This document shows, in pieces, positions 668 through 38,400 of a stretch of 64,000 nt of DNA. The translations under genes were made by a program, and so were the position numbers. The stretch spans positions 1 through 64,000 of the forward strand of contig JAIBAH010000010.1 in NCBI GenBank assembly GCA_019695295.1. The letters run 5' to 3'. Under the pieces are notes generated by a model. That model made no database searches and was not told the DNA's origin. It worked only from the letters and a program-made list of their open reading frames with translations. The stretch is from Bacteroidia bacterium. Its GTDB lineage: Bacteria > Bacteroidota > Bacteroidia > J057. Every line of letters starts with the position of its first letter. The first letter of the stretch is position 1.

Positions 668-1138
668 ATGAAAAATAATATAAAAGAGCAGGTTTTACAC
701 AATATTCTTACCAATCGTAAGGCATACCACGAATTCTTTATTGAAGATGAATATGTGGCAGGCATTGTGCTGACCGGAACGGAGGTGAAATCATTAAGAG
801 ACGGGAAAGTAAACTTTATGGACGCTTTCTGTTTTGAAGAAAACGGAGAAATTTTCGTGAAAAATATTCATATCAGTGAATACTCTCACGGGACTTACCT
901 GAATCATGAGCCAAACCGATTGAGAAAACTTCTGCTGAACAAAAGGGAAATCCGGAAAATCCGGAAAAAACTCGACGAAAAAGGATTTACTCTTGTTCCT
1001 TTACAATTGTTTTTTAGCCATAAAAATCTCGTAAAACTTCATATCGGGCTGGCTAAAGGGAAAAAACTTTATGATAAAAGGGATGATGCTAAAGCCAAAG
1101 ACGCAAAACGCGAAATAGACAGAAGCATGAAATCTTAA
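668..1138 (+). CDS. smpB: SsrA-binding protein SmpB
   Basis: SmpB binds tmRNA (SsrA) and delivers it to stalled ribosomes for trans-translation. The 156-residue length is normal for the family. Hallmarks in order: N-x-K-A-Y near residues 16-20 (NRKAYHEFFIEDEYVAGI), the invariant GTEVKSLRDGKVN around residues 37-49, then HEPNRLRKLLLNKREI, and the GLAKGKKLYDKRDDAKAKD signature near the C-terminus. The basic tail (KREIDRSMKS) is the part expected to enter the ribosome A site. The tmRNA gene itself is not in this window. It is followed 43 bases later by the GH31 gene, with no obvious functional link. Confidence 0.97.
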   Translation: MKNNIKEQVLHNILTNRKAYHEFFIEDEYVAGIVLTGTEVKSLRDGKVNFMDAFCFEENGEIFVKNIHISEYSHGTYLNHEPNRLRKLLLNKREIRKIRKKLDEKGFTLVPLQLFFSHKNLVKLHIGLAKGKKLYDKRDDAKAKDAKREIDRSMKS

Positions 1139-1181: not shown

Positions 1182-3350
1182 ATGAAAAAAATCAAGACTG
1201 ATTCCTTGTTTTCGGAGGAAGAGCAGCAACAGAACATTTCATTGTATCTATTGCGCAGGGAAATAGTGCTTTCAGGACAATTCAGGTTTATCCTTAATAT
1301 TGTTCTGTTTTTTTTACTGACCTCTTTTTCTCAGTTTTCTTTTGCGCAAAGCAAGGGAAGCAGCAAAGTTCCCTTTCGCTTCTTTTTTACCCTGGAACAC
1401 CAAACCATAAAAGGAAAATTAGGCGGATATCGTTTTCATACGGTAAAGCTCCGGAAATATCACCGGATTTCCGAAACAGATACTGTTGAAAATTTCGGTG
1501 GCAGGTGGGTAGTAAAAGGAATTATGAATGACAATCTGAAGCCTGTTCCCTTTCGGGTATCCGAAAGTGCTTATCCGGATAATCAAAGCATTAAAATCAC
1601 CAATCCCAACAACTTCTTTAACCGCACTCATATTGAGCTCGAATTTCCGGACTCGGTTCAGTTTTTTGGGGCTGGTGAGCAGTTTTCCTATGTCCGTTTA
1701 CCCGAAAATCTCAAAAAACCACTGCCTTTATGGATTGAAGAGCCGGGAATCGGAAGGGGAGATTTGCCGGTCAGTCTTTTGACACGTCCTGTGGGGGTGA
1801 GCGGGAATAAACACACTACCTGTTATGCTTTGCCGCTTTGGATTACCTCTGACTTTCAGACAATCTTTGTCAATCAGCCCAATAAACTGATTTATTATCA
1901 GATTTACAGAAAAAAAGGCAAAAAATATCTTCATCTCGTAGTCTCCGGCAATGAACTTCAGGTTCAGGTTCAAAAACACAAAGACGTAAAATCGCTGGTC
2001 AGAAATATCTCCTTTTTTAAGGGACATACCGGCATTCCGGATTTTGGATACAGTGGAGTTTTAGGGCTTCAGGGCGGACGCAAAAGAGTGGATTCCATTC
2101 TTTCCCTTACCCTGAATTCCGGAGTTGCAGTACAGTCTGTCTGGATTCAGGATTGGGTGGGTAAGAGAAAAGTGAGTTTTGGAAGCAGGCTTTGGTGGAA
2201 CTGGCAGGCAAATGAGCAGGTTTATCCGGACTTTCCCCATTGGGTGGATTCCCTGCGCCAAAAAAATATACGGGTGCTTGGATACATCAATCCTTTTCTT
2301 GCCGATACCGGATTTTATACCACCGAGGCACTCCGGAATGGATATGTCCTGAAAAATTCCAAAGGAGAACATTACAAAATCAATGCCGGTGGGTTTGACG
2401 CTTATCTTGTGGATTTATTTCATCCGGAAGCAGCAGAATGGATGATAGAGATTATCCGTAAAGAAATGATAGACAAAGGTTTATCGGGGTGGATGGCTGA
2501 CTTTGCCGAGTGGTTTCCTCCGGATGCCCTGACTCATAACTGTAAGGGAGGGTGCGCCGTTCTTCACAATATGTATGCAGCCGAATGGGCAAGAATCAAC
2601 AAGGAGGCCGTAAAAAGAGCCGGAAAAGAAGATGATATTATCGTTTTTCACCGGTCAGGGTATTATCATTCCTCTATGAATACCACTCTTTTCTGGATGG
2701 GCGACCAAATGACAGACTGGGGCAAAAATGACGGATTCCCATCGGTTTTGAATGCCATCAATAGCAGCGCACTTTGTGGTATCCCCTTTATTCACTCTGA
2801 TATCGGGGGCTATACCTCCGTGAAATACCCTTTGGTCCGTACCCTGAGAAGCCGGGAATTATTATACCGGTGGAGCGAACTTGCGGCTTTTACTCCTTTT
2901 TTCCGTACGCACGAAGGCCTTAATCCCGAACTCAATTTTCAGTATTATTCTGACCTGGAAGCCCTCGCTTTTTTTGCCCGCATGAGTCAGATTCACTATA
3001 GCCTGAAAGCCTATTTTCTTGCTTTGCAAAATGAGGCAATTCAGTACGGATTTCCGGTAAACCGTCCCTTGTGGATGGAGTTCCCAGATGATAAAGAAAC
3101 CCTCAATGCCTTTCATCAGTTTATGCTCGGGAGTGAAATCATCATCATTCCGGTAATTTCCCCGAACAAAACTCAGGTGAAGGGATATCTTCCGGCAGGA
3201 ACCTGGCAACACGCCTTTACCAAACAACAGTTCTCCGGCAATAAATGGTATATTTTTGAAGCACCTCAGGGTACTCCTGCTGTTTTTTTTAGAAAAAACG
3301 GGGAATGGGATGCTGAGTTATCAAAAATTTTTACTAATTTTGTGCAATAA
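1182..3350 (+). CDS. Secreted GH31 glycosidase, sulfoquinovosidase-like (YihQ type)
   Basis: A 722-residue alpha-glycoside hydrolase of family 31 with an N-terminal secretion signal (hydrophobic 35-52, ending FSFAQ-SK). From about residue 315 it follows E. coli YihQ closely. The nucleophile is D440 in GWMADFAEW and the acid/base is D508 in WMGDQMTDW. The four residues that hold the sulfonate in YihQ (Q288, R301, W304, Y508, cited from memory) align with Q323, R336, W339 and Y544; the Q-R (13), R-W (3), R-nucleophile (104) and acid/base-Tyr (36) spacings are the same. This argues for cleavage of alpha-sulfoquinovosides (headgroups of plant and algal sulfolipid) rather than ordinary alpha-glucosides. 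Unlike cytoplasmic YihQ, it should be exported. The first ATG gives an unusually long, charged lead-in; a GTG at 1266 would give a compact signal peptide. No sulfoquinovose catabolism genes are adjacent. Confidence 0.85.
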   Translation: MKKIKTDSLFSEEEQQQNISLYLLRREIVLSGQFRFILNIVLFFLLTSFSQFSFAQSKGSSKVPFRFFFTLEHQTIKGKLGGYRFHTVKLRKYHRISETDTVENFGGRWVVKGIMNDNLKPVPFRVSESAYPDNQSIKITNPNNFFNRTHIELEFPDSVQFFGAGEQFSYVRLPENLKKPLPLWIEEPGIGRGDLPVSLLTRPVGVSGNKHTTCYALPLWITSDFQTIFVNQPNKLIYYQIYRKKGKKYLHLVVSGNELQVQVQKHKDVKSLVRNISFFKGHTGIPDFGYSGVLGLQGGRKRVDSILSLTLNSGVAVQSVWIQDWVGKRKVSFGSRLWWNWQANEQVYPDFPHWVDSLRQKNIRVLGYINPFLADTGFYTTEALRNGYVLKNSKGEHYKINAGGFDAYLVDLFHPEAAEWMIEIIRKEMIDKGLSGWMADFAEWFPPDALTHNCKGGCAVLHNMYAAEWARINKEAVKRAGKEDDIIVFHRSGYYHSSMNTTLFWMGDQMTDWGKNDGFPSVLNAINSSALCGIPFIHSDIGGYTSVKYPLVRTLRSRELLYRWSELAAFTPFFRTHEGLNPELNFQYYSDLEALAFFARMSQIHYSLKAYFLALQNEAIQYGFPVNRPLWMEFPDDKETLNAFHQFMLGSEIIIIPVISPNKTQVKGYLPAGTWQHAFTKQQFSGNKWYIFEAPQGTPAVFFRKNGEWDAELSKIFTNFVQ
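3335..3342 (+). promoter_or_regulatory. Putative -7 box (TAATTTTG) for the amidase gene
   Basis: TAATTTTGTGC lies inside the last codons of the GH31 gene, 21 bases before the amidase ATG. It would give the amidase its own transcript independent of the upstream gene. Confidence 0.45.
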
Positions 3351-3362
3351 ATACTGATTAAT

Positions 3363-4484
3363 ATGAATAGAAAGATTATCATATTCATTCTCCTCACTTT
3401 TATTTTTACCCAGTATCCTTTTGCCCAAAGTGGTCAGAGAGTAGTGGTTATAGATGCCGGACACGGTGGAAAAGACCCCGGAACAATCGGAAAGTCCTCA
3501 AAAGAAAAAAATATAACGCTGAAAGTAGCCAAAAAAGTAGGGAGCTATATAACAGCAAACATGCCCGGAACGAAAGTGATTTATACCCGGACTACCGATG
3601 TGTTTATTCCCCTTGAAAAAAGAGCGGAGATAGCAAACCGGAATAAAGCCGACTTATTCATTTCTATTCACGGAAATTCCTCCAATTCAAAGAGCGTTTA
3701 CGGTACTGAAATTTACCATTTCCCTCAGGCCTATACCTTAAAAACAGATTTGCAGGATGTAATGGAAGACAGCCTCGCCAAAAAAGAAAACCGGGTAGTA
3801 ACGGGAGAAAAAAATTACCGGGAGAGATATCTTCAGCTTTACAAAATGACAAGGGCCAAAAACGGAAAGGATTATGAGCAAAGTGTCCGGCTTGCCAAAA
3901 TCATGGATTATGAACTGAATAAAAAAGCAGGAAGGCGTTCAAGGGGAATAAGAAGTGCCAAATACCTTGTAATCGGCCTTACTGAAATGCCCGCAGTATT
4001 GATAGAAATCGGCTATCTTTCCAACCCCAATGAAGAAAGGTTTATGGCTTCAGAAGAAGGTCAGTCTCTGATTGCGTCCAGTATTTACAGAGGAGTCAAA
4101 ACCTACCTGAACGGTAAAATCACAGAGCCTCTACTCGCTGAAGCAAAGCCACAATCTTCTGCAAAGGAGCCTACTTCCAGACCGGTTGCTTCTGCTGCAA
4201 AACCCGAAACAAAAGCTAAATCCGGAACAATGTCCGTTACTAAACCTGCTCCTGAGAAAACCGCACCTGCCGGAAAATATAAGGTACAGCTTGGAGTATT
4301 CAGTAAAAAAATCCCGGTTACGGAATCAAAGTGGAAACAGGTCAAAAATCTTAAAATTGAAAATGTAGATAATAAATATTACTACTTCGATTTTGGTTTT
4401 CCAACCAAAGAAGAAGCTGAAAAAGCCAAAAATATGCTTAGAAAAAACGGTTTCCCGGATGCTTTTGTTCTTCCTAAAACCTGA
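3363..4484 (+). CDS. N-acetylmuramoyl-L-alanine amidase (Amidase_3) with C-terminal SPOR domain
   Basis: A 373-residue exported zinc amidase that cuts the lactyl-amide bond between MurNAc and the stem peptide, as in AmiA/B/C. The signal peptide is residues 1-22 (ends PFAQ-S). Catalytic domain about 26-250: Zn ligand H34 in IDAGHGGKDPG, E48 in KEKNI, H103 in SIHGN, and catalytic E215 in AVLIEIGYLSN. A Lys/Pro/Ala/Ser-rich linker (about 255-303) leads to a C-terminal SPOR-like domain (about 304-373, starting KYKVQLGVF), which in this family binds denuded glycan at the septum. Its likely role is daughter-cell separation. A roughly 45-residue insertion (about 125-175) sits between the second His and the catalytic Glu, the position of the regulatory helix in division amidases. 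Confidence 0.92.
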   Translation: MNRKIIIFILLTFIFTQYPFAQSGQRVVVIDAGHGGKDPGTIGKSSKEKNITLKVAKKVGSYITANMPGTKVIYTRTTDVFIPLEKRAEIANRNKADLFISIHGNSSNSKSVYGTEIYHFPQAYTLKTDLQDVMEDSLAKKENRVVTGEKNYRERYLQLYKMTRAKNGKDYEQSVRLAKIMDYELNKKAGRRSRGIRSAKYLVIGLTEMPAVLIEIGYLSNPNEERFMASEEGQSLIASSIYRGVKTYLNGKITEPLLAEAKPQSSAKEPTSRPVASAAKPETKAKSGTMSVTKPAPEKTAPAGKYKVQLGVFSKKIPVTESKWKQVKNLKIENVDNKYYYFDFGFPTKEEAEKAKNMLRKNGFPDAFVLPKT

Positions 4485-22891: not shown

Positions 22892-25800
22892 CTACCGCAT
22901 CAGCGTAACGTTTCCGTTATATACCTTTGAACCGATTCTGAGAGCATAATAATATACTCCATCGCTTGCGGGCTTGCCGCTCAGGGTGAGTCCGTTCCAG
23001 GATTCCAGAGGCGTATCCGCAATAAAGTATTTTACACCCCACCGGTCATAGATTACGAGTTGGTATGATTCTGTTCCGGAATACTGAACGAGCCATTCAT
23101 CATAGAAACCATCATTGTTGGGAGAGAATACATTGGGGATAAATAAATCCGGTTGTTCCACATTATAGGTTTTAACCAGTGTATCCACACAGCCCGTTTC
23201 ATTGTAGGCAATCAGCATTACCGGATACATTCCCGGTGTGGTGAACTGATATACAGGATTTTTTTCAAGAGAAAAAACGCCTGGAGAGAATGACCAGTAC
23301 CAGTTAGTTGAATTTTGGGACAGATTGGTAAACGAAACCGTACCCGCCGGCAAAAGAATACCGGAACTGGCGGAAGGGTTGGATTCAAAATTCGCTACAG
23401 GCGATGGATAAACCACTACCGTAGCATTTACAACTTCAGAAACACAGCCTCCGTTTCCTGTAACTGTAAGAGAGACCGGATAATTTCCGGGAGTATCAAA
23501 AGTATGATATAAAGAAGGTATATTCATCACCGGAGAACCGTCATTAAAGTTCCATACATAGGAAAGCGCATTGGTTGCGTTTTGTGTAAACTGAACAGTA
23601 AGCGGAGCACAACCCGAAGCATTGGTAAAATAATAATCCGAAACCGGCTGAGGATTCACCGTGATGGCTACTGAAGCAGAATCCTTACATAAGCCTTCTG
23701 TAACCCAAAGGGTATAAATAGCAGAACTGTCCGGTGATGCCTGTGTAGTAGGGGAGGAGGGATTATCCAGTCCGTTCACTGGTGACCAGCTGTAAATTGC
23801 AGCCCCTTGTCCGCCTGAGCCATACAGGAAAGTTGTCTGATTTCCACAAAGAGTGGTTGTGTCAGCCTGAATCTGAGCGTCGGGTTTGGGGGCTACAGTA
23901 ATCGTTACAGAATCGGAGGTAGCACAATTTCCGGCTACACTGACTGTAGCGATGTAGGTTGTAGTCTGAGTGGGACTTGCCCATGGGTTCGGGATAAAAC
24001 CGGCAGTGAGAGACTCGTCCGGAGTCCAGTCATATACAATAGAGCCCGCGGGAGCTACCGGAGTTCCGTTAAAACTGAAATTCACCTGTAAATGCACTTC
24101 CTCCCCTTCACAGATTAAGGTATCCGGATTGGTAATCAGTGCCAGAGGAGTAGAACGGACATGAATCGTGACAGTATCTACATACCCTATACAAAATGGA
24201 GTAGCCACCTGAAGAATATAGTCTGAAGTAGTAGGTGGATATACATAGGTAACCGGATTATGATTGTCAGCAATATAGGAATTCGGTATCCATTCATATT
24301 CATACAACGTTCCGAACGGGTCTCCGAAGGCAAGTCCATTAATCAGAAGAGAGTCTCTCTGACAAATGTCTGTCACTACAGGCTGAACAGCAGCGGTAGG
24401 CAATGTATGTACTACTACCGATACCGTATCACTTCCATAACAGCCACCGGAACCTACCATCAGCGTGTAAGTATGGGTATAATCAGGAGAAACCAGACTT
24501 TGAGGGTCGCTGTTATCAATCACACCCGCTTCCGGAGTATCGGGGGTCCAGGAATAAGTATAGGGTCCGCCTCCGGTAGCATAGCCCAAAAACTGAACGG
24601 TATCCCCCTTACACATTTCGAGCGTTGGTCCGGCTTCAACTGTAGGCACAGGAATTACATCCACCGTTACTGTACTTGCTGTATCGAGGGGGTCACTCTG
24701 ACATCCGTAAATAGAAGTAACTACCAGTGTATAAATCGTAGTCTGAGAGGGATGAACATACGCATTGGCAAGGGTATCCTGTCCGGGGTTCATGCCAGTA
24801 GTAGGAGACCACTGAAAATGAAAGGGCCCCGGAGCCTCATTATCCTGAGCCAGACCGCCCTGAAGATTTACCCCGGGTGCGCCCGGATAATCACATAATT
24901 TCTGATCAGGGCCGGCATATACTTTGGGCCTTGGCAATTGTGCTACAATGGCAGTATCATAATTACTCAGACATCCGAATCCATCCTGAACCTGTATAAT
25001 ATAAATGGCTGAGTCCTGAGGGTTGACAAAAGGGTCTTCCACATAAGGATTGCTGATTCCTCCTGCCACCGGTATCGAAAACCAGCTGAAATTATAGGGA
25101 GGAGTACCACTGCTTGTCGTCGCATTTAACTGTACGGGGCCAAGCCCTTCACAGAAACCAATGTCTGCTCCCGCCGAAACCTGTGGGGAAGGATTTACAA
25201 ACAAGGTCTGCACCGAAGTATCAAGACATCCTTTATGATTAATCACAAGCGAAACGTTTTGAGGGCCAGGCTGAGTGAAATATACACATCCCGGATTGGT
25301 AAGCGTGGAATTTACCGGAGAAGCGGCACCGCCAAAATTCCAGTAATAAGCCTGCTGCGGATAAACCGGCTGACCCGTATAGGTGAAATTGATACAACTT
25401 CCGACACAATAGGGAACACCTGTATGCAGGAAGTTCGTAGAAGGCTCCGGTACAACTTCATAATAGACGTAGGCGGTATCACTTGTACATCCGTTCCTTA
25501 CGATATATACCCAGGCATAATATTGTCCGGGAGAATTATAGTGAATCCCCGTAGGACTGGCTGCACTCGAAAAAGCAGGAACGCCATTTGGAAATCCCCA
25601 GTAATAAGCATCTGCGGCTCCGCTACCGGTAAAGGTGAAATTAAATGAATTATTGATAAAACACTGATTGGCTACAGGCAGAATATCTGCAACGGGTTTA
25701 TCGAGCACTAAAAAGTCATGACAAGTCTGAGTAGAAGGAGGGCAGGCGGATTCTGTTACCTGAACACAAATCTGATGAATACCAGAAGTAGTCCATGACA

Positions 25801-28800
25801 AAACATATGGTCCCTGACCAGAACCGGATAGCCACACCGCCGAACCGAAATCCCATGAATAAGCTCCGTTTACAGAAGCATTTCCGGTAAATACCACCTG
25901 ATTTGCATCAAAAATACAAATACTGTCCGGAAAAGCAAAGTCAGCTGTTGGAGGAGTATATACATTCACTACAGCACTGTCAGGAAGTCCCGGACATCCG
26001 TTTTCTACGATACTCAGCGTAATATCTTTCACTCCACCGGAAAGCCAGTGAACTGTATGGGGGCCGGGTCCTGTACCGGGGGTAGCGAGTCCTCCTGCAA
26101 AATTCCAGAAGTACTGATACCCTGGATTTAAAGAGCCGGTATAAAATACCACAGAGGAGTCAGAAATACAAATATCTGTCGGTGCGACCAGAATAGAAGC
26201 CGGGGGACCATCTTTTATAAATATCGAACGGACAACCGTATCAGAAGGACATCCGGCACTTTCAACCCATAGAGAAACACTTTGAGTTCCGGAAGTGGAC
26301 CACTGAAGCGTAAAAGGACCCTGTCCTGTGCCGCCACCGGAAGCAGTACCAAAATTCCAGTGAAAAATCTGATTGGAAAAAACCTGACCGGAATAATTTA
26401 CATTGATATCCTGAAAAATACAGGCAGAGTCCGGCATTACGAAATCTGCAACCGGAATCGGATTTATGGTTATCATATCCGAAGTGGGGGGACTGACACA
26501 ACCGTGTTCCGAGACTATCAGCGATACAGGATAATTGGCAGCAAGTGGAAAAGATAAAACAATAGGGCCTTGTCCACCGGTTGGAACTGCATTTGCGAGG
26601 CCAAAATTCCAGTTGTAAATTGCTCCTGCCGTTGCGGAGCCAGTATAAGTTACCGTTGCGGTATTACCAAAACATAAAGAATCCGGTGCGCTAAAAAGGG
26701 AAGTAGGAATTGGATGTATCACAATATCCTGATAAAAAGTATCGGAACCACATCCCTGAGAAGACTCCACCCACACAGAAACGCTATGACTTCCCAGCGG
26801 AAAAGTAAGCGTATGAGGGCCTGCGGTCTGAGCACCACCGGTAGCTGCTCCAAAATCCCAGTGATAAACCGTACCGGGTGAATTCGGACCATTATAAACT
26901 GCCTGAACAGTTTGTCCTAAACATGCGCTGTCCGGAAGAGTAAAGGTAACAGCCGTCGCATTCAGTACATATACAGAATCAACAAACGGCGGACTTGTAC
27001 AGCCATTGGCCGTTACCACGAGTGATACAAGGTGATATCCGGGTGTAGCCCAGGAAACAGAATGCGGTCCCTGCACTGTTCCACCGGGAAAAGCTGTTCC
27101 GCCTGAGAAGTTCCAGTTATAGGTGGCAGAGGCCGGAGCATTTCCCAGATAAGTTGCAATTGCGTCAGCCCCCAGACAAACAGTATCCGTCAGATTGAAG
27201 TTAGCAGTAGGCAAAGGAATAACATCAATTGTATTACTAATGGGCCCGGCAGAGCAACCATTTACATCTGTCACGGATAAAGTAACGACATGCTGTCCTA
27301 ATCCCCATGTCACTGTGTGAGGTCCAATGCCTGTACCCGGATTTGCAACCCCTGAGCCAAAGTTCCACGTATAGGTCGAAACGGATGAGCCTGTGTAGGT
27401 AACCGTTGCTGTATTTCCGATACAAATGGAAGCCGGCATAGTCAAAGAAGGAACCGGAAGGGGGTTAATGAGTATAGTAGTAGTCGTAGTATCCGGTCCG
27501 GAGCAACTATTTCCCGGAGACGGATAAGCGATTAAGGTTACTGTATAAGTTCCGGCAGTACTGTAGGAATGGGTAGGAGAAGTGGCAGTTGAGGTATTTC
27601 CATCCCCGAAATTCCAGGAATAAGTGGAAGCCCCCACAGAATTATTTACAAAATTGACCGGAGCATTCACGCATGCAGAAGCAGGAGCGGTGATAGCAGA
27701 TACTACCGTTACAAAGGCAAAATCTATTTTAAAAACGCCGAGATTACAGTTGGTACTATTGTTGAAATTACTCCAGGCCCCGGGAGTCGTAGGGAATAAA
27801 TCAGAGCCTCCACAGCCCGCACATACCGCTTCATAGATAATGCCGTTAGGGTCAAAACGGGAAGTACCGCCATCCACATGTTCAGTGGTTCCGTTGCCCC
27901 CGAAATAGGTAGCATACAATAAGCCCGCTGCATTGGGTGTAAGTACAATGACATAAAAATCACTTCCGTCGGTAAAATTCTGATAGGTTGGGTTACTGAC
28001 GGGCATACTATTGGTCGTACTGACAATCCCACCCAGTCCAAACTGATTTACCTGACCGCCCCATCCTGCTACGTAAATATTCTCACAATTATCCACCAGA
28101 AAAGCAGTGGGAGAGATATTAATCTGAGATACGTTGGGTGCTCCAAAGATTGTGGACATAGAAACAGCCGACAAATTATTATCTAATTTTGCAATAAAAT
28201 GCTTTGAGCCGGGATTGGAATAAGCGGCTGCGATAACAGGGAAAGCCCCTAAGGTTTGTCCGGTTACATAGATATTTCCGCTTACGTCTTCCTGAATCAG
28301 ATAACTTTGGTCATGGGAGTTGGTTCCGATAAAGGTAGAGGCAAGTAAAGCAGTACCGGTATTATTGATTTTTGTAATAAATCCGTCAATATTCCCTCCG
28401 TTATATACAGTCTGATAGGCCCCAGGTGTAACCGGGAAATTGATACTGGTTGTTCCTCCGGTTACAAAGACATTGCCGCCATTGTCGGTTTTTAATCCGT
28501 AAGCAGCGTCCAGTAAGTTTCCGCCAAGATATGTGGACCACATCAGAGAAGAGAGATTCCCATCCATTTTTAAAACAACGCCATCCTGAAATCCACTGAG
28601 TGTGTTTTGAACGGCACCGGGCGAAACAGGGAAGTTAAACGACTGGGTACAACTTGCTATATAGACGTCATCACTTGCGTCCACAATGATTTCCCCTCTT
28701 GCGTCATCTGAATAATTATAGCTGATTACCCCGTTGGCATTATTATTGGCGTCATCCAGATTCCCTCCTACAAAGGTAGAAGCCAGCATTGTCCCCGTAG

Positions 28801-29974
28801 GGCTAAATTTCGAAACGAATATATCAAACCCCCCGTTTTGGCTTTGGTCATATACTCCGGAGGTTGTAGGGAAATTAAAAGAATTGGTTCTGCCCATCAC
28901 GATTAACTGCCCTAAACTATTGACAACCATACTGTGTGGCTGATCATCAACGTCTCCTCCAAGATAGGTAGAAAACAAAAGCGCAGTACCCAGAGGATTA
29001 TACTTTGTAATTGCAGCGTCTCTGCCTCCTCCCTGATAAAAGGTCTGAAAAGCACCTGCTGTGGTAGGGTAGCCGGTTGCTCCGAATATCCCTCCACTAT
29101 AAATAATGCCTCCCCCGAAAGCATTGCCTACGTTATCATAGGTAGCAGTAAAGCCCCAGTTGTCCTGAGTAGAGCCGGTATAGGTTGAAAAAATCACCGT
29201 AGGGTCTATAGTAAGGGGATAATCAGGATTGATGTCTCCTGAAAAGTGAAAGGAAAGCACATTTTCTATAAGCGAATATTCACAGGGAACCGGAATTTCT
29301 TTGCTATTGATGAACTGAAAAGCATAAGGTTTAAATTCTGTAACTGTATTGACCGAAGTTTCAATCTGAAGATTTCCAGAGCCGGTAATTTTCATTTTTC
29401 CGGATTCCAGTCCATCGTATTTCAGCTGAATCTGAGAAGGGTCACTACCGGGTTGTAGCAAAAAATCATATTTTAGTTTTCCTTCTTTGGAATAAAATGC
29501 CACATCAATCCCTTTCCACACGCCTTTATAGGCTACATTCTCATAAAGCGATACGTTTTCGGCCCATTTTTTCGGGTCATTTCCCAGATAATAATGATTT
29601 TTGGTAATGAAAGGCCTAGAAGGAGCGGTAAAAGTACCGGGCTCCGGATGTAAAAATGAAACGGTGTAAGCATGTCCTTTAATCGTTTCATCGTGTTTTT
29701 CGCCTTTGGGATTATGCTGATGATGTGCGTGTCCTTTTTCCGCTATGGAAGCAGAATCATAAAAAACATAGGTAATTTTACTTTTTTCAAGGAACATACT
29801 GCCCGTTGTAAAGGGAGTATAATATAAAATATTTTCATGCCACTGACCCTTATTTTCAATAAATTGAGCAACAGGCTGAGCAGAAACGTAACAGGAAATC
29901 AGAATGAGAGAAAACGTCAAAAAGATTTTTGAAAATAGTTTCCGGTGAAGAGAGAGTGAATAAAAACGATTCAT
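22892..29974 (-). CDS. Giant T9SS-secreted protein: DUF7948-type N-terminus, SBBP propeller repeats, PKD array, CHU_C tail
   Basis: 2360 residues. Signal peptide about 1-32 (ends YVSAQ-P). The domain starting QFIENKGQWHENI (about 34-250) is the conserved N-terminal module of SBBP proteins. SBBP beta-propeller repeats run from about 255 to 750 (TYLGGDVDDQPHSM..., STFVGGNLDDANN..., STYLGGNLLDAAYG...). From about 765 come PKD domains (YSWNFGDGNTST), then about nine to ten cysteine-pinned PKD variants, SprB-like segments (GTPPYNFSWFSIP) and further PKDs. It ends with a gliding-motility-type CHU_C domain (IPNVFSPNNDGFYDEW... YDRWGVKYF... ASDGVYYYALRIG), a type B T9SS signal. Its likely role is a surface adhesin or gliding-type filament. 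One intact frame with no break. Confidence 0.9.
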   Translation of the reverse strand: MNRFYSLSLHRKLFSKIFLTFSLILISCYVSAQPVAQFIENKGQWHENILYYTPFTTGSMFLEKSKITYVFYDSASIAEKGHAHHQHNPKGEKHDETIKGHAYTVSFLHPEPGTFTAPSRPFITKNHYYLGNDPKKWAENVSLYENVAYKGVWKGIDVAFYSKEGKLKYDFLLQPGSDPSQIQLKYDGLESGKMKITGSGNLQIETSVNTVTEFKPYAFQFINSKEIPVPCEYSLIENVLSFHFSGDINPDYPLTIDPTVIFSTYTGSTQDNWGFTATYDNVGNAFGGGIIYSGGIFGATGYPTTAGAFQTFYQGGGRDAAITKYNPLGTALLFSTYLGGDVDDQPHSMVVNSLGQLIVMGRTNSFNFPTTSGVYDQSQNGGFDIFVSKFSPTGTMLASTFVGGNLDDANNNANGVISYNYSDDARGEIIVDASDDVYIASCTQSFNFPVSPGAVQNTLSGFQDGVVLKMDGNLSSLMWSTYLGGNLLDAAYGLKTDNGGNVFVTGGTTSINFPVTPGAYQTVYNGGNIDGFITKINNTGTALLASTFIGTNSHDQSYLIQEDVSGNIYVTGQTLGAFPVIAAAYSNPGSKHFIAKLDNNLSAVSMSTIFGAPNVSQINISPTAFLVDNCENIYVAGWGGQVNQFGLGGIVSTTNSMPVSNPTYQNFTDGSDFYVIVLTPNAAGLLYATYFGGNGTTEHVDGGTSRFDPNGIIYEAVCAGCGGSDLFPTTPGAWSNFNNSTNCNLGVFKIDFAFVTVVSAITAPASACVNAPVNFVNNSVGASTYSWNFGDGNTSTATSPTHSYSTAGTYTVTLIAYPSPGNSCSGPDTTTTTILINPLPVPSLTMPASICIGNTATVTYTGSSVSTYTWNFGSGVANPGTGIGPHTVTWGLGQHVVTLSVTDVNGCSAGPISNTIDVIPLPTANFNLTDTVCLGADAIATYLGNAPASATYNWNFSGGTAFPGGTVQGPHSVSWATPGYHLVSLVVTANGCTSPPFVDSVYVLNATAVTFTLPDSACLGQTVQAVYNGPNSPGTVYHWDFGAATGGAQTAGPHTLTFPLGSHSVSVWVESSQGCGSDTFYQDIVIHPIPTSLFSAPDSLCFGNTATVTYTGSATAGAIYNWNFGLANAVPTGGQGPIVLSFPLAANYPVSLIVSEHGCVSPPTSDMITINPIPVADFVMPDSACIFQDINVNYSGQVFSNQIFHWNFGTASGGGTGQGPFTLQWSTSGTQSVSLWVESAGCPSDTVVRSIFIKDGPPASILVAPTDICISDSSVVFYTGSLNPGYQYFWNFAGGLATPGTGPGPHTVHWLSGGVKDITLSIVENGCPGLPDSAVVNVYTPPTADFAFPDSICIFDANQVVFTGNASVNGAYSWDFGSAVWLSGSGQGPYVLSWTTSGIHQICVQVTESACPPSTQTCHDFLVLDKPVADILPVANQCFINNSFNFTFTGSGAADAYYWGFPNGVPAFSSAASPTGIHYNSPGQYYAWVYIVRNGCTSDTAYVYYEVVPEPSTNFLHTGVPYCVGSCINFTYTGQPVYPQQAYYWNFGGAASPVNSTLTNPGCVYFTQPGPQNVSLVINHKGCLDTSVQTLFVNPSPQVSAGADIGFCEGLGPVQLNATTSSGTPPYNFSWFSIPVAGGISNPYVEDPFVNPQDSAIYIIQVQDGFGCLSNYDTAIVAQLPRPKVYAGPDQKLCDYPGAPGVNLQGGLAQDNEAPGPFHFQWSPTTGMNPGQDTLANAYVHPSQTTIYTLVVTSIYGCQSDPLDTASTVTVDVIPVPTVEAGPTLEMCKGDTVQFLGYATGGGPYTYSWTPDTPEAGVIDNSDPQSLVSPDYTHTYTLMVGSGGCYGSDTVSVVVHTLPTAAVQPVVTDICQRDSLLINGLAFGDPFGTLYEYEWIPNSYIADNHNPVTYVYPPTTSDYILQVATPFCIGYVDTVTIHVRSTPLALITNPDTLICEGEEVHLQVNFSFNGTPVAPAGSIVYDWTPDESLTAGFIPNPWASPTQTTTYIATVSVAGNCATSDSVTITVAPKPDAQIQADTTTLCGNQTTFLYGSGGQGAAIYSWSPVNGLDNPSSPTTQASPDSSAIYTLWVTEGLCKDSASVAITVNPQPVSDYYFTNASGCAPLTVQFTQNATNALSYVWNFNDGSPVMNIPSLYHTFDTPGNYPVSLTVTGNGGCVSEVVNATVVVYPSPVANFESNPSASSGILLPAGTVSFTNLSQNSTNWYWSFSPGVFSLEKNPVYQFTTPGMYPVMLIAYNETGCVDTLVKTYNVEQPDLFIPNVFSPNNDGFYDEWLVQYSGTESYQLVIYDRWGVKYFIADTPLESWNGLTLSGKPASDGVYYYALRIGSKVYNGNVTLMR
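25190..27465 (-). repeat. Tandem block of about nine to ten cysteine-pinned PKD variants
   Basis: Units of about 80 residues share the frame P-x-P-x-A-x-F-x-x-P-D-S-x-C near the start, Y-x-WNFG in the middle, then G-x-GPHxVxW and a closing V-x-x-x-GC. Each unit has one Cys early and one late, suggesting a disulfide per domain. The units have diverged enough at DNA level that this is an old array. Confidence 0.7.
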
Positions 29975-32374: not shown

Positions 32375-32495
32375 TGAACCGGATTATTTACATCATAATC
32401 TGGCAAAATGAGGGGAGTTTTCCCGATTTTTATTCAGTCATAACGATTTAATTGTATTGTATAATAATTCTTTTATAATTTTAATAAAAAAAAAC

Positions 32496-35400
32496 ATGTA
32501 TAAATATATATTTTTCTTCATATTTCTGTTGTTTTCTTTTTTAAAAATGCAGGCACAGTGTGATACTTCCACCGTTCAGGGGAGTTTTCCTGTAAACTTT
32601 ACTTTCAATCCCAACAGTGCTATTTGTCCGGGCAACACTGTTAGTTTTAATGGTTCTCCTTCCGGAAATCAATATGTCTATTCCTGGAATTTTGGCGACC
32701 CGGCAAGCGGAGCGGCTAATACGGCCACTACGCAGAATGCATCCCATGCTTTTTCCTACAGTGCCTCCGCTCAGAGTTATACTGTAACCTTTGTGGTAAT
32801 CGATACAGTAGGGGAGGATACCTGTAATTTCAGGACTCATACGGTAAATGTACAGTCGGGGCAGTTTGTCCTGGTTGATACCATTGACTTTAATATTTGC
32901 GTACCGGGCCTTAATCCGGTTACTCAAAATGATACTTTATTTACCTTTAATATTCTTAATCCGGCTTCCGGTAATTTTATCTGGGATTTCGGTGATGGTA
33001 CTCCTCCTGTAGGCCCAAGCCCGGCATTGAGCCAAAGCCATCTTTTTACCAACTTCGGTACCTATCTGATTACCGTTACAGAAGCAGGAAGTACCTGCCC
33101 GGGTTTTCAGCATGTGTTTCAGTTCTATACCAACCCGATAGCTTCTATGGCGTTGCTTTCCAATCCCTTCGTCTGTGAAGGAGATACTATTTTTACTTTT
33201 AACAATAGTACTCCCGGTACATCTGATTATTTCGTGTGGAATTGGGGGGACGGAACCACTACAACGGTAAACGATACTTCACAGCAATCCCATCTGTATC
33301 AGCTAAGTCCTGCGCAATTATGTGGACCTAATCCCGGTAATGGTGGTGCATTTCAGTATTCCATTACACTGGAAGCCTATAATGCCTGCTTTTTACCGCA
33401 TACCAATACTTCCCCTATTAATATCAAGCCCAAAGCACATGCGGAGTTTACCTTTCCTTCCATTGTCTGTGTAAATCAACCTGTGCCTTTTACCAATCAG
33501 ACCTGCCCTGCCTGGGGAGGGAATGTGTATTCCTGGAACTTCGGGGACCCTGCAAGCGGAGCGGCTAATACAAGTAATGCTACGAATCCTACTCATACCT
33601 ATGCCACCCCCGGAATCTATACTGTAACTTTGATTGCAAACAAAACGAATGGTTGCAGTGAAAAAGATACAATACAGCATACCGTTATCGTTACAGATGA
33701 CCCTGTAATCAATATCAGTCTTACCAACAACAATAATGGATGTGCGCCTTATATTGTCACTTTTGATAATAACTCTACACCCTCTGTAGGAGTGAATTAT
33801 TTCTGGAGTATCTCTCCCACATTAGGGGTTTCCTATGTAAACGGTACCAATTCGAATTCGCTCGAGCCTCAGATTCAGTTTTCCGTTCCGGGGATTTATA
33901 CCGTCAGTTTATTTGCCAATAATCTTTGTAATTCAGCGAGTTATTCTACTACTATTACTGTTAAAGGCCCCCCTGTTGTCAATCTGAATCTTCAAAATGA
34001 TATATGTATCCCTGTGGGAGCTTCCGCTCAGATTAATCCTTCTGCTTCTATCAGTTCCAATTTTGGTACAATTTCCGGGATTAACTGGACATTCAACAAT
34101 GGAACTCCGGCCACAGCCAATACTGCTAATCCGGGTACAATCAGTTTTCTGCCGGGTACTCACTCCATAAACCTTAGCGTTACCAATGAATGTGGTACAG
34201 TTACCGGCGGGGATATTTTTGTAGTAAGGGAAATTCCTCAGGCCAATGTATCCTATACTCTCAGCGATTCACTCGGATGCCTTAACGGCGGGCAACTTGT
34301 CGCCAACTTCACCAATAGTTCATTGCCTTTGTCAGGAGTAAGCTATAACTGGAGCGTAAGTCCGGGTTTCGGATGGAGCTATACATCAGGGAATTCCGGT
34401 TCTTACAGTCCTCAAATTACCTTTAATACTGTTGGGAATTATACCGTTAGTTTTACGATTTCCAACGCCTGCAGCAGTGATACATGGACTACGGTGATTT
34501 CTGTCAAAGATGACCCGATTGTAACCCTCACCGCTCAGCCGGATATCTGCCTTAATCCGGGTCAGAGTTCTATCAATCTGAATCCCTTTGCGTCCTTTAA
34601 TGCCAATAATGGAACAATCACTCAGTATAACTGGTCATTCTTTAACGGCGTACCCAATTTTGCCACAACCCCCAATCCGGGTCTTATTAACTTTGGTCCG
34701 GGTACTCATACTCAAATTATTGCAGCAAGTAATGTCTGCGGAACGACTACTGCATCAGATGTATTTCTTGTGCGCTTATTTCCAGATGCAAATATTTCCT
34801 TTACCGGAAATGGTATTCCCGGAAATGATACCGTTTGTATTCCCTTGAATACGAATTTTCTGGTAGCTTTTTCCAATGCGTCCACTCCGGGTACAAGCGT
34901 AACTCACAACTGGTCAGTTTCACCTGCAACGGGCTTTAATTTTGCATCAGGAAGTGCTACTTCGTCGGCTCCAAGTATTAACTTTACACAGCCTGGGACT
35001 TATACTGTAAATTATACCATCGGAAATATCTGTGGTCAGGATAATCAGAGTTTTGTATTCGTTATTCAGCAGCCACCTTCTGTTACAGTTAATGCAGTTC
35101 CGGATAGCTGCGGTTTTCTGGTGGTAAACCCGACTGCGGTATTAAATGGAAATAATGCTACTGTTTTATCCTACTCATGGACTTATGCAGGTGCAAATCA
35201 AAGCGGCTCAACGCTACAGAGTCCTTTACCTGTAACTTTCCTTCCGGGGAACGATACCATTTTCCTTACTATCATTACCTCTTGTGGAGCAACTTCCGAT
35301 TTTGAAACCTTCTTTATAAATCCCCCGGCGGTATTATCTACCCGTCCGGATACTTCAATCTGTAATAATACAGGACCAATTGGTTTATGGGGAACCCCTC

Positions 35401-38400
35401 CGGGAGGAACCTGGTCAGGGGCGAATGTAACTCAGGGAGCGACCAATGCTGTAGCTACTCTTGGAACCTTTACTCCTTCCGGAGCAGGCGTTTTCAATGC
35501 AGTATATAGTTATGGGGCAGGTAACTGTCTTGTGAGGGATACCGCTGTGATTACCGTGAACAATCCTCCTGTGGTTTCAGCAGGTGCGGATATTGCTGTA
35601 TGTCAGGGAAGCGGAACGGTAGTACTTACCGGTAACCCTTCCGGAGGCTACTGGACCAATGCGGGCAATGCGGTCGTAACCGGTTTTGTGCCCGTTACAC
35701 CCGGAACATATAATTTCACTTATCATTTTACCTCACTTGTAACCGGCTGTACAAGCAGGGATTCAATGAGTATTACGGTGAATCCTTTACCAATTGTAAC
35801 TGTTCCGGATACTTCAATTTATTGTTTCACCCTGATACCTATTACTTTACCTGCAGGAAATCCTCCCGGGGGATTCTGGACAGGAGCAAATGTAACGGGA
35901 GGAAATACTTATAATTCGGCTGCTTCAGGTCTGGGCTTTCACGGATTACAATATCATGTAACCAACGGGTTCGGCTGTATTGACAGTGCTGAAATGATTG
36001 CAAATGTAGTGCCGCCTGTTCCGGCAGATGCAGGAGCTGATTTTCAGATATGTGTAAATGCCGCTACTATTCAGCTTACCGGCCTTCCTAATGGCGGTAG
36101 CTGGCTCCCTCAGCCGGGCCTTACCGCAAACGGCGATTTTAATCCTACTCAAACTACAGTGGGAATACATAATCTTGTCTATACTTTTGGGTCAGGAGAT
36201 TGTCAGACCTGGGATACTGTTGCGGTGAATGTCCTTGCTTTACCGGTATTAAACCCCGGAGCGGGCTTTGACGCATGTATTTCTGATATCACCTTTACCC
36301 TTGGCGGGGCTACTCCTTCCGGTGGTTTCTGGTATGGAACGAGCATTACAGACTCTGTTACTTTCCTTCCTTCAACTGTAGGATTAGGGATTACCCCGGT
36401 ATTCTATGTTTATACTGATGGAAATGGATGTTCTGATACGACAACAACAGATATTACAGTTAATCCTCTTCCAAACCCCAATTTTGTGGTTCAAACGCTG
36501 GGTTGTATCAATAGTCTCGTCGGATTTACGAACTTCTCATCCGGTGCAGCCACTTACAGCTGGGATTTCGGGGATGGGAATACAAGTACTATTATGAGTC
36601 CTACTCACGTCTATACGGATACGGGAACGTATGTGGTTTCCATGATTGCATACGGGCCTACAGCAGCTGCCTGCCCGGATACTATGTCGGTTACGGTTAC
36701 CATTGTAGATATTCCGGTGCCTTCTTTTGCGGCAGTTCCTGACAGCGGTTGTGCGTCTTTCCTCAGCAATGGCTCCGTAGGGCTGAATGTGGACTTTATA
36801 GACTCCAGTCTTACCTATGGTGGTACTTATTCATGGAGTTTTGGAAATGGTCAGGTTTCTACGATTTCCAATCCCGGAACGATTACTTTTTTAGAAGGCC
36901 AGAACGATACAACTTATTATGTTCAGCTATTTCTTACCAATTTATGCGGAACAGGGATTTATATGGATACGGTAGATGTCTCAGCTTTACCAAAATCCAT
37001 ATTTGGTACCAATGTAAGCAGTGGTTGCTCGCCCGCACCTTTTTCCTTCTCCAATATTTCTCAGGGAAATGCGACCAGTTTCTTCTGGAATTATGGAAAT
37101 GGAATCACATCTACTCTTCCTAATCCTACCACTCAGTATTTTACCACCGGGGCTAATGATACAACTTATACGATTACCCTTATTGCTTCCAATGCCTGTG
37201 GTGCAGACACTTCGAGTACTACGATTCTGGTTCATCCGAATAATGTGGATGCATTTTTTAATGCAACTCCTACGAGTGGCTGTGCTCCTTTGACGATTAA
37301 TGTAAGTAATTTTTCCAACGGAACAGTAGTCAGCTATGATTTCGGTGATGGTTCGGTGAGTGCCGCAGCCAATGCCATTCATACTTATACTTTACCGGGA
37401 ACTTATATTTTGACACAGTTCGCCAATAACGGATGTAGCTACGATACGTTAGGAGTACCAATTACAGTTTATCCTGCGCCGGCTGTTTCTTTTGTGGTCC
37501 AGAATCCGATTTGCGAAGGGATGGCCGCCAATTTTACCAATACTACCAACAATGTAAGCGGAATATTATGGGACTTCGGCGTTACGAATATTCTTTCGGA
37601 TACTTCCAATGCCAATAATCCAGTTTATTTTTACCCTGCTCCCGGAAGCTATAATGTTACTTTGACAGCATATTCATCTATCAGTCAGTGCGTTTCATCG
37701 GAAAGCCAAACAGTAATTGTTCATCCGGCTCCTGTGATTGATTTCACCCTTCAGGATACTTCCGGGTGTACGCCTTTCAATCTCGCCGTAACTTCCAATA
37801 ACTCTCAGGGGGCTTTCCATTTCTGGGACTTTGGAAACGGACAATCTTCCGGAGCAGCAACTCCTTCAGTTTCTTACGTTACTGCGGGAAGTTATACGGT
37901 AAATTATACCAATACTACTGGCTTTGGTTGCGAATCCGATACAAGCTTTACTGTACTGGCTTTAGATCAGCCGGTAAGTAGTTTTATTCCTTCTGCTACT
38001 TCTGTTTGTGGTGCACCGGCTACGATTAGTTTCACCAATACTTCTACCGGAAACAGCCTTAGTTACTCATGGTTCTTCGGTAACGGACAAAGTAGTATTG
38101 CGTTTGAACCTCAGGTTACTTATACTGTGGCGGACACCTTTACTGTTTCGCTGGTTACGTTCAATGGGCTGTCTTGTTCGGATACAAGTACTGCTCAGAT
38201 TATTGTTCATCCTCAGCCGGTTGCCAATGCCAGTGTGACTCCTTTGCAGGGCTGTTCTCCGCTGAATGTGAATTTTAATAACCTTTCCACGAACGCCAAT
38301 CTGTATTCATGGGACTTCGGGGACGGGTCACCGGTAGCCAATACGCTGAATACAAATCATACCTATCTGATCAATGGTATTTACAATATTGCCCTCATTT

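Follow-up and report, generated by a model that had tools for sequence, protein, structure and literature searches.

The locus and its gene

The window, by which we mean the whole 64-kb stretch of DNA analysed here, carries a gene whose product resembles the sulfoquinovosidases (SQases) of glycoside hydrolase family 31 (GH31), enzymes that release sulfoquinovose (SQ). It is flanked on both sides by genes unrelated to SQ (Table 1). The two Pfam matches of the protein, at 123.8 bits for PF01055 (cut-off 23.5) and 68.4 bits for PF21365 (cut-off 24.4), place it in GH31. Moreover, the gene bears no signal of recent transfer into the window, its G+C content being 43% (GC3 45%) against 42% for the window.

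Elsewhere in the window there are two giant ORFs (22892-29974, 2360 aa, and 32457-41012, 2851 aa) with PKD-like repeats and, as judged by eye, a gliding-type C-terminal domain. A 372-aa ORF resembling a PorP/SprF-type protein sits between them.

Table 1. The SQase-like gene, its parts and its two neighbours, in positions of the window
Feature	Position	Strand	Remarks
smpB, upstream neighbour (housekeeping, not SQ related)	668..1138	+	
GH31 sulfoquinovosidase-like gene	1182..3350	+	intact ORF, 722 aa
Predicted N-terminal export signal	1182..1346	+	sequence inspection and hydropathy; low model confidence there, as expected
Q297 codon (YihQ Q262)	2070..2072	+	alignment
Q323 codon (YihQ Q288)	2148..2150	+	alignment
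Pfam PF01055, GH31 TIM-barrel match	2169..3017	+	residues 330-612
R336 codon (YihQ R301, sulfonate binding)	2187..2189	+	alignment
W339 codon (YihQ W304, sulfonate binding)	2196..2198	+	alignment
D440 codon (YihQ D405, nucleophile)	2499..2501	+	alignment
D508 codon (YihQ D472, acid/base)	2703..2705	+	alignment
Y544 codon (YihQ Y508)	2811..2813	+	alignment
Pfam PF21365, GH31 C-terminal domain match	3048..3299	+	residues 623-706
N-acetylmuramoyl-L-alanine amidase-like gene, downstream neighbour (not SQ related)	3363..4484	+	

Signature residues

In E. coli YihQ we take R301, W304 and Y508 to recognise the sulfonate, Q262 and Q288 to bind the ring hydroxyls, D405 to be the nucleophile and D472 the acid/base. 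The protein was aligned with its homologues, the E. coli K-12 yihQ and yicI products and three solved SQases. A sequence-only reading of this DNA had matched six residues of the protein to YihQ, and in the MAFFT alignment each of these pairs shares a column (Q288/Q323, R301/R336, W304/W339, D405/D440, D472/D508 and Y508/Y544, YihQ first). Further aligned pairs are Q262/Q297, R455/R491, H537/H577 and D504/D540. As the Q262 position, missing from that reading, is also Q, the protein has the full QQRWY set of the E. coli type and not the KERWY set of the Agrobacterium type. The catalytic Asp nucleophile and Asp acid/base of a GH31 SQase are represented in the alignment by D440 and D508.

The specificity set Q/Q/R/W/Y occurs in none of the eight other GH31 enzymes aligned, namely E. 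coli YicI, those of Thermus, Listeria, Natribaculum, Deinococcus and Paucilactobacillus, and the two other GH31 proteins of the same genome. In these eight the R301 and W304 positions are gaps and the Y508 position is F. The match of the specificity positions in the aligned sequences is more than chance. Conserved sulfonate-recognition residues and a retaining mechanism have been described for SQases in general terms (PMC11968277).

Family match, predicted fold and phylogeny

Searched by sequence against the PDB, the protein comes closest to six distinct SQases (E 1e-100 to 1e-113, including 8r56, 5aed, 6pnr, 5ohy and 5ohs), and the first GH31 enzyme of another kind is a maltase-glucoamylase at 5e-33. 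The sole NCBIfam model that fits above its cut-off is that of the YihQ family, NF007746/PRK10426 (623.2 bits, cut-off 553). This equivalog model is still named 'alpha-glucosidase' by NCBI, which bears out the earlier warning that a generic annotation would miss the SQase identity. An AlphaFold2 model built from a 16-member alignment (pLDDT 81.7, pTM 0.83) was compared with the PDB by Foldseek, and the top 23 matches were all SQase chains with TM scores of 0.82-0.83 by query length, followed by YicI at 0.65. These chains include the covalent complex of BmSQase as well as inhibitor- or substrate-bound enzymes of E. coli, E. rectale and A. tumefaciens.

A tree was built that comprised SQases of known activity, plasmid-borne ones from SQ clusters, GH31 enzymes of other kinds and homologues from Myxococcota. 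In it the protein belongs to a Bacteroidota clade of exported homologues (support 100/99). The sister group, joined to this clade at 100/100, holds all nine SQases in the tree that are characterised or come from clusters, together with a long-branched protein of Entomospira. The eight other GH31 rows fall apart from both. A second, quicker tree with six added members retained the same placement. The check proposed by the sequence-only reading thus came out in its favour, as the protein groups with SQases at full support and not with alpha-glucosidases or alpha-xylosidases. The position is, nevertheless, that of a sister of the characterised SQase clade and not one within it; identity is about 35% to YihQ (580 aligned residues) and 41-43% to the nearest relatives.

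The Entomospira culicis protein is encoded on a plasmid (L111:8710-10713) and has a very long branch beside the SQases. Its acid/base Asp position is Arg, its R301 position Pro and its Y508 position Ser, and it is possibly an inactive paralogue. A large GH31 group from the named-genome scan (L026-L085), mostly from Myxococcota/'Deltaproteobacteria', includes many proteins with lipoprotein-like signals and a common GWMADFAEW peptide; these dominated the scan because of the shared WMADFAEW. They were rejected as SQase relatives, since they have no R/W and, in the tree, the 15 that were placed fall outside the SQases.

Export signal

The claim that the protein has a signal peptide, unlike YihQ, is upheld by a hydrophobic stretch at residues 36-54 followed by S-F-A|Q at 53-56. 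The maximum 13-residue Kyte-Doolittle mean reaches 2.45, whereas YicI and six cytoplasmic SQases stay at 0.9-1.6, and cleavage would be expected after A55. The annotated ATG leaves a long, charged lead of 35 residues before the hydrophobic stretch. A GTG at 1266 would yield a normal 27-residue signal peptide and is plausibly the true start.

Nearly all clade members have an N-terminal hydrophobic stretch, most of them ending in Q, although in L009, L020, L023 and L024 it appears only if a non-ATG start is accepted. No export signal was found in YihQ, in the Enterobacter SQase or in four plasmid SQases (Rhizobium, Ensifer, Novosphingobium and Burkholderia). The site of action outside the cytoplasm is most probably the periplasm.

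Distribution and variation of the clade

A search of 393 genomes of the phylum with the YihQ NCBIfam model at E 1e-90 returned only the protein of the window and L090, the latter a false relative that falls outside the SQase clades in the tree. The search was nearly empty because the model is too narrow for the Bacteroidota clade, and a profile made from the clade alignment was used after it. Within the class this matched in 17 of 395 genomes, which represent 9 of 197 genera. Within its own family (13 genomes of ten genera searched) the gene is found in two species of one genus only, and the named relatives come from bins of environmental Flavobacteriales, Saprospirales and other Bacteroidetes.

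The partner of the protein in the tree, L004, is a homologue from another species of the same genus and is only 41% identical. The two genes also occupy different genomic places: that of L004 comes after a gene judged by eye to be ksgA-like and that of the window follows smpB. A third congeneric species has an smpB protein that is 91% identical, but no SQase comes after it, nor was one found in the rest of that genome, which is 86% complete.

Q, Q, W, Y and both Asp are kept in all 22 clade members. The sulfonate-binding Arg is replaced by Gln (QQQWY) in six of them (L005, L018, L141, L143, L144 and L145), by at least two separate changes on the quick tree, and is kept in the protein of the window. 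The QQQWY members may have another specificity and be natural specificity variants, and because of them sulfonate specificity may not extend to every member of the clade. A clade gene copy in genome G534 (L146) has four in-frame stops over the match and is apparently decayed.

No Bacteroidota or exported GH31 SQase is described in the accessible part of the literature searched, subscription papers being outside its scope. A well supported, Bacteroidota-only clade with predicted export, whose members examined are orphans, is new here.

Gene neighbourhood and search for sulfoquinovose genes

Location in an SQ catabolic cluster is usual for GH31 SQases, although it does not strictly define them, and the gene studied here has no such location. 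No SQ genes were recognised within the window. Nor were any seen around 15 homologous loci, some with short flanks, where translations read by eye show housekeeping and unrelated genes. By contrast, the E. coli and Enterobacter SQases adjoin yih genes and those of Rhizobium, Ensifer and Burkholderia are within sulfo-ED-type clusters. It has been reported that yihQ/sftG was co-located with every SQ cluster characterised by then, and that SQase homologues are one lineage within GH31 (PMC8397734).

A search for SQ catabolism genes elsewhere in the genome, suggested by the sequence-only reading, did not bring the expected partners to light. It covered this genome and seven gene-carrying relatives. 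YihS and YihT gave no match at E 1e-5 in any of the eight, in searches run without a positive control, and neither did an SmoC-type LLM monooxygenase or an SqoD candidate dioxygenase, for which positive controls were detected. The SmoC and SqoD query proteins were assigned from their gene neighbourhood, the SqoD candidate being the dioxygenase near the Novosphingobium SQase. An SQ dehydrogenase query (sulfo-ED) found only a generic SDR at 36% identity. As for the SF transaldolase (SftT, sulfo-TAL), each of the eight genomes has at most one transaldolase, and the sole one of this genome is closest to ordinary transaldolases (268 bits, against 130 bits to BmSF-TAL). The partner SQ genes searched for are likely to be absent from the genome, as far as similarity can tell.

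Two of the plasmid loci are of interest in themselves. About 10 kb of a Novosphingobium plasmid (L093:3536-13803) hold an SQase, a TonB-dependent receptor, an LLM monooxygenase, an aldo/keto reductase and a phytanoyl-CoA dioxygenase-like gene, possibly providing both SMO- and SDO-type desulfonation of SQ. A Burkholderia multivorans conjugative plasmid (L110:4491-19695) has a sulfo-ED-like cluster with an SQase, glycerol kinase (glpK) and glycerol-3-phosphate dehydrogenase, which looks like a mobile capacity for both halves of sulfoquinovosyl glycerol.

Proposed function and alternatives

Sequence, predicted fold and phylogeny together make a strong case for an SQase. The protein is predicted to be an exported, most probably periplasmic, retaining GH31 alpha-SQase which cleaves sulfoquinovosyl glycerol or sulfolipid from phototrophs, a reading to which we give a probability of about 0.8. 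D440 would attack C1 with D508 as acid/base, as in YihQ, while R336, W339 and a Y544-bound water would grip the 6-sulfonate and Q297 and Q323 would hold the ring hydroxyls. The substrate, sulfoquinovosyl glycerol or sulfoquinovosyl diacylglycerol, would enter the periplasm, presumably from decaying phototrophs, whether algae or plants, and would be split into SQ and glycerol or diacylglycerol. The gain of the bacterium would lie mainly in the released aglycone, or else in SQ used by a route not yet recognised. The simplest account would be that cleavage occurs in the periplasm and that the cell profits from the glycerol or lipid moiety. By analogy, the glpK and glycerol-3-phosphate dehydrogenase genes of the Burkholderia cluster suggest that SQase use can serve glycerol supply, and a glycerol kinase is also found within the E. 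rectale SQ cluster (PMC11968277). Against this reading stand the low identity to YihQ and to the nearest relatives, the lack of an adjoining SQ gene, the failure to find the partner genes searched for and the change of Arg to Gln in part of the clade.

The enzyme may instead feed SQ into a pathway of its own genome that is not yet known or is too divergent for the queries used, which would differ from the periplasmic reading only after the cleavage step. The preserved signature implies selection for cleavage of SQ glycosides, SQases do occur in SQ clusters (PMC8397734) and, for labelled taxa that have no known cluster, unknown SQ routes have been suspected (PMC13372026). Since, however, no clustered genes are seen at the gene or in the flanks of its homologues, the YihS, YihT, SmoC and SqoD candidate searches drew blanks in the eight clade genomes (those for YihS and YihT uncontrolled) and the sole transaldolase is an ordinary one, such a pathway seems rather doubtful. 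It is improbable that an SQase-type pocket here serves a different 6-anionic alpha-glucoside, such as a sulfonated or sulfated surface glycan made by the cell itself, as part of periplasmic housekeeping. The protein retains all the sulfonate-pocket residues, which in solved SQases recognise sulfonate, and the gene is patchy (one of ten family genera searched), unlike a housekeeping gene; still, in all relatives examined the gene stands alone among housekeeping genes, and this, the pocket drift shown by the R to Q changes and the deep divergence inside the clade would all suit that role. An ordinary alpha-glucosidase or alpha-xylosidase has the generic name of the fitting NCBI model on its side, but that model is the one of the YihQ family, and as tree, fold and residues all set the protein apart, with the tree already contradicting it, this reading is scarcely credible.

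What is unusual about the predicted periplasmic SQase is the combination of export, orphan position, separate clade and no recognised use for the product. We would tentatively suggest that exported Bacteroidota SQases act without a known sulfoglycolytic pathway, gaining glycerol or lipid, and either leaving SQ as a public good to other bacteria or feeding it into an undescribed SQ pathway. SQases provide the entry step into SQ turnover, and those examined outside the Bacteroidota clade lack an export signal and go together with gene clusters for SQ use. Bacteroidota are barely mentioned in those portions of the SQ literature that were searched. An exported, cluster-free Bacteroidota clade, if true, would separate sulfolipid cleavage from SQ consumption and make free environmental SQ easier to explain. 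Such a clade would escape both annotation, as 'alpha-glucosidase', and surveys based on SQ gene clusters. The production of SQ amounts to about 10 billion tons a year (PMC10755693).

Comparison with known systems

The NAD-dependent SQases of GH188 (SqgA) give the same reaction product but belong to an unrelated family with an oxidoreductive mechanism (PMC10755693). YicI alpha-xylosidase and the alpha-glucosidases have the GH31 catalytic machinery in common with the protein studied here but no sulfonate pocket, and they are more distant from it in sequence (5e-33 or weaker) and in fold (TM 0.65, against 0.83 for SQases). The KERWY-type SQases of A. tumefaciens, rhizobia, Burkholderia and Novosphingobium share the fold, the R, W and Y and both Asp, whereas they have K and E where this protein has two Gln, and no signal peptide is seen in those plasmid homologues that were examined. 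The rhizobial and Burkholderia enzymes belong to sulfo-ED-type clusters and the Novosphingobium one is near flavin monooxygenase and aldo/keto reductase genes. The QQRWY-type GH31 SQases (E. coli YihQ, E. rectale SftG 6pnr and BmSQase 8r56) are the best matches in both sequence and structure, being alike in GH31 fold, nucleophile and acid/base and the full Q-Q-R-W-Y set. YihQ and the other SQases read at full sequence lack a signal peptide and are encoded in SQ operons, whereas the protein of the window has a predicted export signal, is an orphan and belongs to a sister clade.
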